From assembly GCA_028698335.1 (NCBI GenBank), contig JAQVDP010000002.1, positions 62,001 to 126,000 of the forward strand: a stretch of 64,000 bases of DNA. Direction: 5' to 3'. Source of the DNA: Nevskiales bacterium (lineage in GTDB: Bacteria; Pseudomonadota; Gammaproteobacteria; Nevskiales; Nevskiaceae). How positions within the stretch are numbered: the stretch's first letter is position 1; each line of letters opens with the position of its first letter. Below, piece after piece: positions 28,622 to 51,036 of the stretch. The notes under the pieces were generated by a model that did no database searches, was not told where the DNA came from, and worked only from the letters and a program-made list of their open reading frames with translations. The translations under genes and the position numbers were made by a program.

Positions 28622-28697
28622 TGGCACTCCCAAGGGGACTCGAACCCCTGTTTTCGCCGTGAGAGGGCGACGTCCTAGGCCACTAGACGATGGGAGC
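28622..28697 (-). tRNA. tRNA-Glu (anticodon CTC)
   Basis: The minus strand reads GCTCCCATCGTCTAGTGG at its 5' end, the tRNA-Glu D-arm pattern. It continues to an anticodon loop CTCTCAC (anticodon CTC), the T-loop GGTTCGAGTCC and an encoded CCA end, 76 bases in all. It marks the junction between the stress/glycogen island and the core genes, and no integrase or att-like duplication was seen beside it. Confidence 0.95.
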
Positions 28698-30088: not shown

Positions 30089-30576
30089 CGCAAGGATACC
30101 GGCGCGCCTATGTGGGGCTCGGCGCCAATCTCGGCGACCCCCCTCGGCAGTTGCGGCGTGCGCTGGAACTGCTGGGCGAATACGGGACCGTGCTGCGGGT
30201 GTCGTCGTTCTATCGATCGGCGCCGATGGGCCCGCAGGATCAGCCCGACTACTGCAACGCCGTCGCGATCATCGAAACATCGCTGGAGCCGGCGGCGCTG
30301 ATGCAGGCGCTGCTGGCGACCGAGCGTCGCTGTGGACGGGTGCGTGAGCGCAAATGGGGGCCGAGAGTCCTGGATCTGGATCTGCTCCATGTCGAGGGGG
30401 CGGTTTGCCAGGGCGATGCACTGACGCTGCCGCATCCCGGCATCGGCGTGCGTGCCTTTGTGCTGGTGCCCTGGGCCGAGATCGCACCGGAGGTCCAGAT
30501 TCCCGGGCTGGGACGGGTTGCCGATCTGGCCGCTGCGGTGGACGCCGCCGGACTCGGGCTTTGGGTCGCGGTTTGA
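30085..30576 (+). CDS. folK: 2-amino-4-hydroxy-6-hydroxymethyldihydropteridine diphosphokinase
   Basis: A 163-residue HPPK, which transfers pyrophosphate from ATP to the pterin in folate synthesis. Family motifs are YVGLGANLGDP at the start, SSFYRSAPMGPQDQPDYCNAV, and ERKWGPRVLDLDLLH, where the two Asp bind Mg2+, followed by LPHPGI. The ATG at 30085 overlaps the pcnB stop; upstream in-frame codons belong to the pcnB region. The pcnB-folK-panB order is common in gammaproteobacteria. Confidence 0.93.
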   Translation: MTQGYRRAYVGLGANLGDPPRQLRRALELLGEYGTVLRVSSFYRSAPMGPQDQPDYCNAVAIIETSLEPAALMQALLATERRCGRVRERKWGPRVLDLDLLHVEGAVCQGDALTLPHPGIGVRAFVLVPWAEIAPEVQIPGLGRVADLAAAVDAAGLGLWVAV

Positions 30577-30681
30577 GATCGGCGCGGGAGGCGCTTCTTG
30601 GCGGCGCCCCGGAAACGCGTCCGGATCTGCAAATACGCTAGACTTGCACCGCTTTAGATGGCGGGCGTTTCCGCCAGTGAC

Positions 30682-30757
30682 GGGCGTATGTCTTAGTGGG
30701 CCGCCCATTCTGAAAATCGAGCGGGCGACGCGTGTATGTCTTGGTGGGCCACCGTCG
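30682..30757 (+). promoter_or_regulatory. Tandem hairpin leader of panBC (candidate regulatory RNA)
   Basis: Two adjacent hairpins lie 67 bases before the panB ATG. Element 1 (30682-30706) has stem GGGCG/CGCCC closing the 15-base loop TATGTCTTAGTGGGC (30687-30701). Element 2 (30726-30757) has the loop TATGTCTTGGTGGGC (30735-30749) closed by GTG/CAC, a bulged C at 30731 and an outer stem CGACG/CGTCG. The same pair, in the same order, precedes panD. Conservation of the loops with changing stems points to an RNA structure. A 'pan' RNA motif is known upstream of pantothenate genes in other phyla; its identity with this one could not be tested. Confidence 0.65.
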
Positions 30758-30824
30758 TTCGGACGCGATGCCGGTATCTCCGCAGTCGCCATGACGCGGG
30801 GGCATCGCGAGGAGCCACACTCAC

Positions 30825-31649
30825 ATGGAAAACAGCAAGCCTGTCAACGTCGCCGAGCTGCGGCGGATGCGGGAGGCGGGGGACAAGATTGCCTGCCTGA
30901 CGTGCTACGACGCCAGTTTCGCCCTGGTCGAGGATCGGGCGGGGGTCGACGTGGTCCTGATCGGGGATTCCCTCGGCATGGTGCTGCACGGCGGCAAGAC
31001 CACGACTCCGGTGACGCTCGACGACATTGTCTACCACTCGCGCTGCGTGGCGCCGCACCTGTCGCGTGCCTTCCTGATGGCCGACCTGCCGTTCCTGTCC
31101 TACGCGACGCTGGAGCGGGCCCTGGATGCGTCGCAGCGGGTGATGCAGGAGGGCGGTGCCAAGATGGTCAAGCTCGAGGGCGGGCGCGAGCAGGCGAGCA
31201 TCGTCGAATACCTTGCCGTCCGCGGCGTACCGGTTTGCGCGCATCTGGGGCTGCAGCCGCAGTTCATCCACAAGATGGGGGCGTTCCGTGTTCAGGGACG
31301 CGAGGATGCGGCGGCCGAGGCGATGCTGCACGACGCTCGCGTGCTGGTCGAGGCCGGGGCCGATCTGCTGCTGCTCGAATGCATTCCGGCCGAGCTTGGC
31401 AAGCGGATTGCGGCCGAATCGTCGGTCCCGGTGATCGGGATCGGCGCCGGTGCCGATGTCGACGGCCAGATTCTGGTCCTGCACGACATCCTCAATATTT
31501 CGCCGACGGTGACGCTTGGGCGGACGCCGCGTTTCGTCAAGAACTACATGACCGACGGCGCCGACATCGAGCGGGCGATCGGCAATTATGTAGCCGAGGT
31601 CAAGTCGGGCGCGTATCCAGCCCCCGAGCATTGCTTCGCGGGGGCTTGA
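30825..31649 (+). CDS. panB: 3-methyl-2-oxobutanoate hydroxymethyltransferase
   Basis: A 274-residue TIM-barrel enzyme making ketopantoate from 2-oxoisovalerate and methylene-tetrahydrofolate, the first committed step to pantothenate and CoA. Motifs include MREAGDKIACLTCYDASFA, VVLIGDSLGMVLHG (with the Asp that binds Mg2+), MVKLEGG, VCAHLGLQPQ, LLLECIPAELG and VIGIGAG. GAGGAG stands before the ATG. The stop overlaps panC by one base (TGATG). The leader carries two conserved hairpins. Confidence 0.95.
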   Translation: MENSKPVNVAELRRMREAGDKIACLTCYDASFALVEDRAGVDVVLIGDSLGMVLHGGKTTTPVTLDDIVYHSRCVAPHLSRAFLMADLPFLSYATLERALDASQRVMQEGGAKMVKLEGGREQASIVEYLAVRGVPVCAHLGLQPQFIHKMGAFRVQGREDAAAEAMLHDARVLVEAGADLLLLECIPAELGKRIAAESSVPVIGIGAGADVDGQILVLHDILNISPTVTLGRTPRFVKNYMTDGADIERAIGNYVAEVKSGAYPAPEHCFAGA

Positions 31650-32497
31650 TGCAGACGGTTCATACGATCGCGGCGCTGCGCGAGCAGGTCGCACGCTGGC
31701 GCGAAGCCGGCGAGTCCGTCGCCCTGGTGCCGACCATGGGCAATCTGCATCGTGGACACCTGCGTCTGGTGGAGCAGGCCCGGGGTCATGCGCGGCGGGT
31801 GGTTGCGACGGTTTTCGTCAATCCTCTGCAGTTCGGAGAAGGAGAGGACTTCGGCCGTTATCCGAGGACCCTGGCTGAGGATCAGGCCCGGCTCGAGACG
31901 GCGCAGTGCGATCTGCTGTTCGCGCCGGACGAGGCGCAGATCTACCCCGACGGTCGCGACGATCTGAGCCGGGTCGTGGCGCCGCGGGCATTCGCGGAAC
32001 TCGAGGGTGCCCATCGACCGGGGCATTTCGACGGCGTCGCGACGGTCGTGAGCATCCTGTTCAATCTGGTGCAGCCTGATATCGCACTATTCGGTGAGAA
32101 GGACTATCAGCAATTGCAGCTGATCCGGCGCATGGTGGCCGACCTGCACATGCCGATCAGCATCGTCGGCGTTGCCACGGAGCGCGAGGATGACGGTCTG
32201 GCGCTGTCGTCGCGCAACCAGTACCTGGGCCCGGAACAGCGGCGAAAGGCGCCGGCGCTGCACGCGGCGCTCAGCGCGGTTGCCGCGGGGCTGCGCGGCG
32301 GGCGCCGGGATTTCGAGGCCTTGTGCAGGGAGCAGTTCGAGGCGCTTGCGGGACAGGGGTTCGAGCCGCAGTACGTGGCGATCCGTCGTCCGGACCTGCG
32401 TCCGTCCGAGGCGGGCGACACCGAGTTCGTGGTGCTCGCTGCGGCGGTGCTCGGCACCACGCGCCTGATCGACAATCTGCGGGCAGAGGCCGTGTGA
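31649..32497 (+). CDS. panC: Pantothenate synthetase
   Basis: A 282-residue ATP-dependent ligase joining pantoate and beta-alanine. The nucleotidyltransferase motif appears as PTMGNLHRGHLRL (usual ALHEGH replaced by NLHRGH). VATVFVNPLQFG, HRPGHFDGVATVV, FGEKDYQQL and LALSSRNQYL follow. It starts in the panB stop codon, so the two are translationally coupled. The longer open frame from 30452 runs through folK and panB in another frame and is not coding. Confidence 0.95.
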   Translation: MQTVHTIAALREQVARWREAGESVALVPTMGNLHRGHLRLVEQARGHARRVVATVFVNPLQFGEGEDFGRYPRTLAEDQARLETAQCDLLFAPDEAQIYPDGRDDLSRVVAPRAFAELEGAHRPGHFDGVATVVSILFNLVQPDIALFGEKDYQQLQLIRRMVADLHMPISIVGVATEREDDGLALSSRNQYLGPEQRRKAPALHAALSAVAAGLRGGRRDFEALCREQFEALAGQGFEPQYVAIRRPDLRPSEAGDTEFVVLAAAVLGTTRLIDNLRAEAV

Positions 32498-32538
32498 CAG
32501 GGGCGCGCGGGGCGCTTGCGGGGGAATGTGACGATTGT

Positions 32539-32567
32539 TTGATGCACTGCGCAATTCCGGCTAAACT
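32539..32567 (+). promoter_or_regulatory. Probable sigma70 promoter for panD
   Basis: TTGATG (32539-32544) and TAAACT (32562-32567) are 17 bases apart. Transcription would start near 32574, so the mRNA leader of about 136 bases would contain a GTGAC/GTCAC hairpin (32584-32597) and both conserved tandem hairpins. Confidence 0.5.
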
Positions 32568-32603
32568 CAAGCCTCTTCGCTCAGTGACCACAGTCACGGG
32601 CAA

Positions 32604-32683
32604 CGGGCGTATGTCTTAGTGGGCCGCCCGCCGTTCCAAGACCCGTGGATCGTCGTGTGTATGTCTTAGTGGGCCACCGACGA
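32604..32683 (+). promoter_or_regulatory. Tandem hairpin leader of panD (candidate regulatory RNA)
   Basis: This is the second copy of the paired hairpins seen before panB. Element 3 (32604-32630) has stem CGGGCG/CGCCCG and loop TATGTCTTAGTGGGC (32610-32624). Element 4 (32650-32683) has the identical loop (32660-32674), a GTG/CAC inner stem, a bulged T at 32656 and an outer stem TCGTCG/CGACGA. Compared with element 2, the outer stem keeps pairing with changed bases. CACGGG (32595-32600) and CCCGTG (32642-32647) could form an alternative helix enclosing element 3. The panD ATG is 26 bases downstream, close enough for effects on ribosome access. Confidence 0.65.
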
Positions 32684-32709
32684 CCAAGATCCTAGAGAGA
32701 CCATCCGCC

Positions 32710-33099
32710 ATGCAATTGCACATGCTTAAATGCAAGCTGCACCGCGCCTGCGTGACTCACGCGGAGCTGGATTACGACGGTTCCTGTGCGATTGATTCGA
32801 AGCTGCTCGAGCTGGCTGGCATTCTTGAGTTCGAGCAGATCGATATCTACAACATCAGCAACGGCGAGCGATTCACGACCTACGCGATCAAGGCCGAGCC
32901 GGGTTCCGGCATCATCTCGGTCAACGGCGCCGCGGCGCACAAGGCCCGTGTCGGCGATCGCGTCATCATCTGCGCCTACGGCACCATGGATGCCGGTGCC
33001 GCGCGGACCTACCAGCCGCGCCTGGTGTACCTGGACGAGAAGAATCGCGTCGAACGCACGGCCAACACCATTCCGGTACAGGCTGCTTCGGGCGCTTGA
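32710..33099 (+). CDS. panD: Aspartate 1-decarboxylase proenzyme
   Basis: A 129-residue pyruvoyl-dependent enzyme that makes beta-alanine for pantothenate. The self-cleavage site Gly24-Ser25 is in YDGSCAID. It opens with [18 protein letters not shown], then has [33 protein letters not shown] and a normal C-terminus. It has its own promoter and a leader matching that of panBC, so the two transcripts are probably co-regulated. The stop overlaps the next gene's TTG start. Confidence 0.95.
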
Positions 33100-50951: not shown

Positions 50952-51036
50952 TGGTGCCGAGGAGAGGACTCGAACCTCCACGGTGTTACCCGCCAGTACC
51001 TGAAACTGGTGCGTCTACCAATTCCGCCACCTCGGC
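50952..51036 (-). tRNA. tRNA-Leu (anticodon CAG)
   Basis: The minus strand begins GCCGAGGTGGCGGAATTGG, the tRNA-Leu D-arm pattern. The anticodon stem CCAGT/ACTGG encloses TTCAGGT (anticodon CAG). A long variable arm, the T-loop GGTTCGAGTCC and an encoded CCA end follow. The size of 85 bases fits a class II tRNA. Confidence 0.96.

Follow-up and report, generated by a model that had tools for sequence, protein, structure and literature searches.

The question raised by this locus is what one short sequence, which stands twice before panB and twice before panD in a Nevskiales bacterium, does for the pantothenate genes that follow it. The window is a stretch of 64,000 nucleotides (nt) from the forward strand of contig JAQVDP010000002.1 (positions 62,001 to 126,000; assembly GCA_028698335.1). 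An initial annotation described the sequence as the near-invariant 15-nt loop of a hairpin and proposed a structured regulatory RNA. The element is real and specific and lies outside Rfam 15; we regard it as a candidate for a new class of RNA, though one whose kind is familiar. Judged from sequence, the tandem hairpins probably control the amount of vitamin B5 (pantothenate) that is made. Our preferred interpretation, held with moderate confidence, is a cis-acting tandem-hairpin leader RNA of panD and panB in Nevskiaceae-like bacteria, read by a trans-acting factor that changes translation initiation.

Four copies of one core in the window and the genome

Each leader carries a first hairpin (e1) and a second hairpin (e2). 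All four cores were found by core match where the annotation had placed them:

30687-30701, + strand, e1 core of the panB leader
30735-30749, + strand, e2 core of the panB leader
32610-32624, + strand, e1 core of the panD leader
32660-32674, + strand, e2 core of the panD leader

The core is identical in three copies, and the second copy (panB e2) has G instead of A. Core-to-core spacing is 48 in the panB leader and 50 in the panD leader. Copies 1 and 3 are flanked by GGGCG/CGCCC stems, and copies 2 and 4 by GTG/CAC, a one-base bulge and then a longer stem, in which A-T/T-A and G-T/T-A differences separate the two. The stems, the bulge, the spacing of 48-50 and these outer-stem changes all agree with the annotation.

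The whole genome (4,298,632 bases in 44 contigs) was scanned with the core TATGTCTTRGTGGGC at up to two mismatches. This gave four forward and no reverse matches, all four mismatch-free, on the coding strand of the pan genes and in the panB and panD leaders only. The reversed pattern, used as a control, gave two forward and three reverse matches at up to two mismatches and none on either strand at up to one, where the true pattern still gave four. In the window alone, at up to three mismatches, four matches were found against 1.1 expected, again all with no mismatch, and 1 of 100 shuffles reached four.

The strand of these matches bears on the possibility that the repeats are the pairing target of a trans-acting small RNA. 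A long conserved stretch with repeated sites would suit such a target. However, the genome holds no reverse-strand match to the full core at up to two mismatches, and in the hairpin predicted below a large part of that stretch is base-paired. We consider a small-RNA target very unlikely.

Predicted structure and covariation of the hairpins

The alignment contained 104 distinct copies with no more than two substitutions, each less than 300 nt from a panB or panD start. Gene starts in relatives, here and below, are extrapolations from tblastn and not annotations. A covariance model (R1) recovered a few more diverged copies (G010 e1, two G015 panB copies and G036 e2). The hairpins of the window are:

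30682..30706, + strand, hairpin e1 of the panB leader (core match; fold; R1 45.6 bits)
30722..30761, + strand, hairpin e2 of the panB leader, with 1-nt bulge C30731, a 3-nt bulge and an extended lower stem (-19.7 kcal/mol, z -1.85; R1 38.3 bits; lower-stem covariation in 18 distinct relatives)
32604..32630, + strand, hairpin e1 of the panD leader (R1 48.3 bits; -14.1 kcal/mol)
32650..32683, + strand, hairpin e2 of the panD leader, with 1-nt bulge T32656 and a 3-nt bulge (R1 37.4 bits; z -2.13)

In the RNAalifold consensus of the 104 copies, a 5-bp outer stem is followed on its 5' side by a 3-nt Y-A-U bulge, above which stand a 4-bp GYCU/GGGC inner stem and a UNNU tetraloop. The inner-stem pairs within the core are G4-C15, Y5-G14, C6-G13 and U7-G12, and about 8 of the 15 "loop" bases are paired. 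All four window copies singly take the consensus fold (z -1.77 to -2.13). For example, panB e1 reads GGGCG-UAU-GUCU-UAGU-GGGC-CGCCC. The consensus and the single folds of the window copies agree, and in this predicted structure the "15-nt loop" is mostly not loop. The annotation is corrected on this point, since the pairing of the GYCU/GGGC stem leaves only the 3-nt Y-A-U bulge and the 4-nt UNNU loop.

At least 90% conservation was found in 16 of the 29 alignment columns. The bulge A is present in 99 of 104 copies, and the consensus has this single 3-nt bulge. An extra single-base bulge, mostly C or T, occurs in most e2 copies of the Solimonas type (the window's own genus-level group) and is missing from some copies.

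The same alignment bears on a leader-peptide element, in which the core would act as a minimal open reading frame (ORF), AUG-UCU-UAG. Three of the four window copies do contain ATG TCT TAG. However, the loop positions vary (AG, GG, TT, TG, AT, CG) and 5 of 104 copies have CTG for ATG, so neither start nor stop is conserved. An upstream ORF inside the hairpin was rejected on this basis across the 104 copies, and we regard the leader-peptide explanation as barely credible.

The outer stem covaries, with 40 cells of double-sided change against 4.9 in shuffles and a covariation score of 0.165 against 0.102. For example, outer-stem columns 6 and 24 hold CG in 46, UA in 29 and UG in 26 of the 104 copies. 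When the register of this stem was slid, paired cells fell from 96.4% to 41-58%. The extended e2 stem of the Solimonas type (18 distinct sequences) gave 28 double-sided cells against 11.4 in shuffles and a score of 0.292 against 0.160, which was lower in every slid register; the position beside the bulge is unpaired in 7 of the 18 sequences. The annotation had proposed to check pair covariation with a covariance model, and such covariation was found in the outer stems and not in the inner stem. The inner stem is backed instead by folding energy and by two aberrant copies (G036 e2 and G025 panB e2), whose insertions are confined to the bulge or the loop, with the stems kept.

Placement before panD and panB

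The element precedes panD in 57 of 57 genomes (56 of the family and G059, from another family of the order), with both copies found by pattern in 56; in the G036 panD leader the second copy is diverged (21.8 bits). It also precedes panB in 18 genomes, nine of the Solimonas type and nine of the Nevskia type, which is another genus-level group. A conserved, structured leader RNA tied to the pantothenate genes, as the annotation had proposed, is borne out by the covarying outer stems, the tandem layout and this placement. Covarying structure and a gene-specific location, which together mark a cis-regulatory structured RNA, were thus both found, with the covariation in the outer stems only.

Core spacing in the panD leaders is 46-53, and 49-50 in 40 of 56. 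From the end of the e2 core to the panD start the distance is 29-38 nt in 55 of these 56 leaders and 45 nt in the remaining one. The direct distance from e2 to the gene is longer for panB than for panD. In all nine Nevskia-type panB leaders, a short ORF with a sequence like a Shine-Dalgarno (SD) site starts 29-33 nt past e2 and runs into the inferred panB start, with which its stop codon overlaps (ATGA or GTGA); translational coupling or a leader peptide may be the reason. These ORFs (L058, L059, L060, L062, L063, L065, L066, L186 and L187) encode 20-38 amino acids, with an MQxT start in six of nine.

The near-constant distance to the panD start codon also bears on whether the repeats are a DNA operator, read as double-stranded DNA by a transcription factor. 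The inverted arms of the repeats, and their position shortly after the predicted -10, would be consistent with an operator. However, the conserved core is non-palindromic, the arms change on both sides with pairing kept (the bulged register included), the two aberrant copies insert only in bulge or loop, and the distance is kept relative to a start codon. An operator is, in our judgment, highly improbable.

Distribution among genomes

R1 was applied at a threshold of E<=0.05 in the order and E<=0.001 in the class and phylum; searches over 40 genomes used stricter filters, under which weak relatives may be missed. The core pattern at up to one mismatch was present in 50 of 58 family genomes. 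Of its 93 family matches, 88 stand before panB or panD and the other five stand elsewhere, without arms. R1 matched 58 of 85 order genomes, namely 56 of 58 in the family, the sole genome of family f3 (G059) and, among the remaining 26, one with a weak match (G084, E 0.0097). Conservation of the loop sequence before pan genes of relatives, on which the annotation had staked its proposal, is found in most of the family. The two family members without hairpins (G017 and G031, 91% and 90% complete) also lack a PanD match; beta-alanine auxotrophy, another route to beta-alanine or assembly gaps are possible explanations.

The order has 27 genomes outside the family; of the 22 searched for PanD, 19 gave a match, and inspection of these 19 panD leaders found the element in none except G059. 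In family f6, the sole PanD-like match of G072 and G081 (L178 and L177) is distant (37 and 39% identity) and the leader is unrelated. The annotation had considered a gammaproteobacterial member of a known family or a new class, but a broad gammaproteobacterial element was not found. In overlapping samples of 369 class and 398 phylum genomes, the window's own genome was the sole match (0 of 368 others in the class and 0 of 397 others in the phylum). PanD was present in 123 of 185 sampled class genomes. In the samples searched, the element is therefore restricted to the window's family, apart from a single genome from another family in the order.

A tandem-pattern scan of genome contigs from 84,980 species found 52 stretches, 46 of them before panB or panD. 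The contig titles include Solimonas, Nevskia, Sinimarinibacterium, Hydrocarboniphaga, Panacagrimonas, Stagnimonas, Fontimonas, Algiphilus and Polycyclovorans. The other six stretches (L083, L087, L088, L094, L109 and L125) had no adjoining panB or panD match, and two of them, L094 and L109, are plainly repeats. Nevskia-type pan leaders also occur on contigs titled Rhodospirillales, Verrucomicrobia and Lysobacteraceae (L102, L115, L111 and L126), which are probably mislabelled bins.

Analogous tandem repeats were sought in 47 panD leaders, and only the window's own (16 of 16 identical bases) and that of G059 (15 of 16) were positive. The best 16-mer repeat of each remaining leader (45 in all) reached 10-13 identical bases; in 40 random sequences the mean was 10.6 and the maximum 12. 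Two extra weak R1 matches (25-26 bits), inspected as signs of other regulated genes, had no recognizable gene start downstream. One of them, of 26.2 bits in G053 (L190, 1589-1619), lies away from pan genes; its core has an insertion and may be enclosed by a GCACG/CGTGC stem. Further extra R1 matches are in G020, G024, G040, G059 and G084.

Comparison with known RNAs and regulatory systems

At gathering score, Rfam 15 matched only two tRNA genes in the window (28625-28697 and 50955-51036, both on the - strand). The panB and panD leaders had no Rfam match at E<=10, and three weak small-RNA matches (E 5-10) lie inside the panB/panC coding region, outside the leaders. The guanidine-II riboswitch also consists of two small leader hairpins that share conserved nucleotides, and its loops are conserved. 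In the new element, by contrast, the conserved positions are those of the bulge and inner stem, and the tetraloop is variable in its middle.

The annotation had also raised membership in the pan RNA family (RF01749, cut-off 36.2 bits). This was rejected, since the model matched neither the window nor either leader (E<=10) nor the genome (E<=0.001), and the same model finds B. subtilis. The pan motif, as described in PMC2864571, has tandem bulged hairpins before pan genes and was suggested to be a dimeric protein-binding motif. The two elements are alike in several ways. First, pan RNA precedes operons with panB, panC or the aspartate decarboxylase gene, and the new element likewise stands before pan genes. 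Secondly, pan RNA consists of simple stems with conserved bulges, mostly in tandem, and the new element is tandem in 56 panD leaders (PMC2864571 for pan RNA). The new element differs in its one 3-nt Y-A-U bulge, its GYCU/GGGC inner stem and the extra single-base bulge in most Solimonas-type e2 copies. We read it as a new leader RNA, confined to one clade and analogous to pan RNA, that is probably bound by protein and acts on translation. If a protein does read it, the element may be an independent invention of the role of the pan motif.

Feedback on pantothenate synthesis at the PanD step is also exerted in E. coli by PanZ and coenzyme A (CoA), but PanZ-CoA control acts on the protein, whereas the new element is a leader RNA (PMC4410942 for PanZ-CoA). 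PanZ is conserved in a small group of gamma-proteobacteria that includes E. coli, according to a title cited in PMC4410942. Among the literature matches listed, no such element was described for these bacteria. The main texts of PMC11109978 and PMC8632094 make no mention of pantothenate, panB, panD, Nevskia, Solimonas or CoA except in one reference title. The main text of PMC7266159 makes no mention of pantothenate, panB, the pan motif, coenzyme A or protein-binding.

Ribosome-binding sites and proposed mechanism

The folds of the region after e2 described first were made on that region alone, without the 5' arm of e2. They predict the following in the panB leader of the window:

30757..30815, + strand, predicted SD-sequestering stem of panB, in which GTTC (30757-30760) pairs with GAGC (30812-30815) around a hairpin at 30764-30809
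30809-30814, + strand, panB SD GAGGAG (unpaired probability 0.23)

The GTTC overlaps the 3' arm of e2. In all nine Solimonas-type panB leaders the SD pairs with bases +7 to +12 past the e2 core, at or inside this arm, although the leaders are related and so represent fewer than nine independent events. The unpaired probability of the SD is 0.00-0.28 in these leaders. The region folds moderately better than shuffles in Solimonas-type panB leaders (mean z -1.31), against +0.22 in the Nevskia type, and is unstructured in panD leaders (+0.19).

A switch-like layout of this kind would be expected of a tandem riboswitch whose ligand (pantothenate, beta-alanine, pantoate or CoA) is bound by each hairpin or by both together, and in which e2 competes with or buttresses the SD pairing. 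The high conservation of the columns, the tandem copies and the predicted anti-SD that abuts or overlaps e2 in all nine leaders are consistent with it. However, the hairpins are very small with a variable tetraloop, no common expression platform was found in the panD leaders, and the SD pairing comes from folds of the region after e2 alone. Most vitamin riboswitches also differ from this element, with its restriction to one clade and its regulon of two genes. We regard the riboswitch as a doubtful alternative. The stronger claim, a first RNA that senses the pantothenate/CoA branch directly as a tandem riboswitch for pantothenate, beta-alanine or CoA, with hairpin 2 gating the ribosome-binding site, is unlikely. 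If true, it would fill a gap, since a 2022 review names CoA among the cofactors without a known riboswitch (PMC9971707).

We therefore return to a leader RNA read by a trans-acting factor. Each hairpin would offer the same recognition surface, a Y-A-U bulge below a GYCU/GGGC stem with a UNNU tetraloop. The factor would read the two copies, about 49 nt apart, together, and is most likely an RNA-binding protein that is dimeric or has two sites. A dimeric protein site is proposed because the hairpins are alike, bulged and in tandem, as has been proposed for pan RNA (PMC2864571, as above). The bound factor would alter translation initiation at the first start site after hairpin 2, and the purpose is presumably feedback control of the supply of pantothenate (CoA). 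In Solimonas-type panB leaders, where e2 overlaps the predicted anti-SD, formation of e2 would release the SD. In panD leaders a bound e2 near the SD would more likely block it. In this mechanism we infer that the leader is transcribed, that a factor binds it, that a protein and not a ligand does so, that translation is the step under control and that the outcome is feedback repression. The predicted structure, tandem layout, gene association, clade distribution and fixed distance to the panD start are read directly from the genomes compared.

Several results weigh against this interpretation. First, only three outer-stem pairs have double-sided change, a number matched by 30 of 500 shuffles. 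In the extended e2 stem the number is six, reached by 218 of 500 shuffles, and the +1 register gives eight. The inner stem has no double-sided change among the 104 copies; three of its four pairs are invariant and one varies on one side only. Secondly, ascertainment inflates the conservation of the core, since the patterns used to collect relatives allowed 0-2 mismatches. Third, in whole-leader folds of 56 panD leaders, e1 reached a probability of at least 0.5 in 23 and e2 in 35. Lastly, no consistent partner of the SD (mean unpaired probability 0.37) was found in these 56 folds, and control would therefore differ between panD and Solimonas-type panB. In the L160 fold, the arms of e1 and e2 pair with each other. 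Such competing pairings may belong to a switching mechanism or may reflect the limits of the energy model. The element is a small, directly testable RNA, and the family has deposited strains such as Solimonas flava DSM 18980.

Other features of the leaders and the pan genes

The remaining features of the locus are:

30659..30676, + strand, P0 hairpin of the panB leader, TGGCGG/CCGCCA (fold z -2.47)
30825..31649, + strand, panB, 3-methyl-2-oxobutanoate hydroxymethyltransferase (TIGR00222, 297.9 bits, above cut-off)
31649..32497, + strand, panC, pantoate--beta-alanine ligase (TIGR00018, 307.9 bits)
32539..32567, + strand, promoter-like sequence of panD, TTGATG, 17-nt spacer, TAAACT (read by eye, 8/12 consensus matches)
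32584..32597, + strand, P0 hairpin of the panD leader, GTGAC-CACA-GTCAC (fold z -1.74)
32710..33099, + strand, panD, aspartate 1-decarboxylase (TIGR00223, 164.3 bits; start codon 35 nt past the e2 core)

The panC start overlaps the panB stop (ATGA), and the panB leader therefore probably serves both panB and panC. A promoter scan with a cut-off of 9 listed none, and the promoter-like sequence of panD, at 8/12, falls below that cut-off; a "ta.A.t" block recurs across the aligned panD leaders. No terminator-like site was found in 30500-32800. The P0 hairpin, which the annotation had missed, lies just 5' of e1 in each window leader, and its sequence varies between genomes. The P0 region of 56 panD leaders has a mean z of -1.43, against -0.30 in the upstream control. 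The signal is weaker in 18 panB leaders (-0.63, against +0.22 in 17 upstream controls). In some genomes, such as G038, P0 reads TGTGA-N6-TCACA, which we take to resemble a CRP-type site, and other genomes have unrelated stems. The gene set around the element is folK, panB, panC, panD, a TIGR02466 protein and glucose-6-phosphate isomerase.
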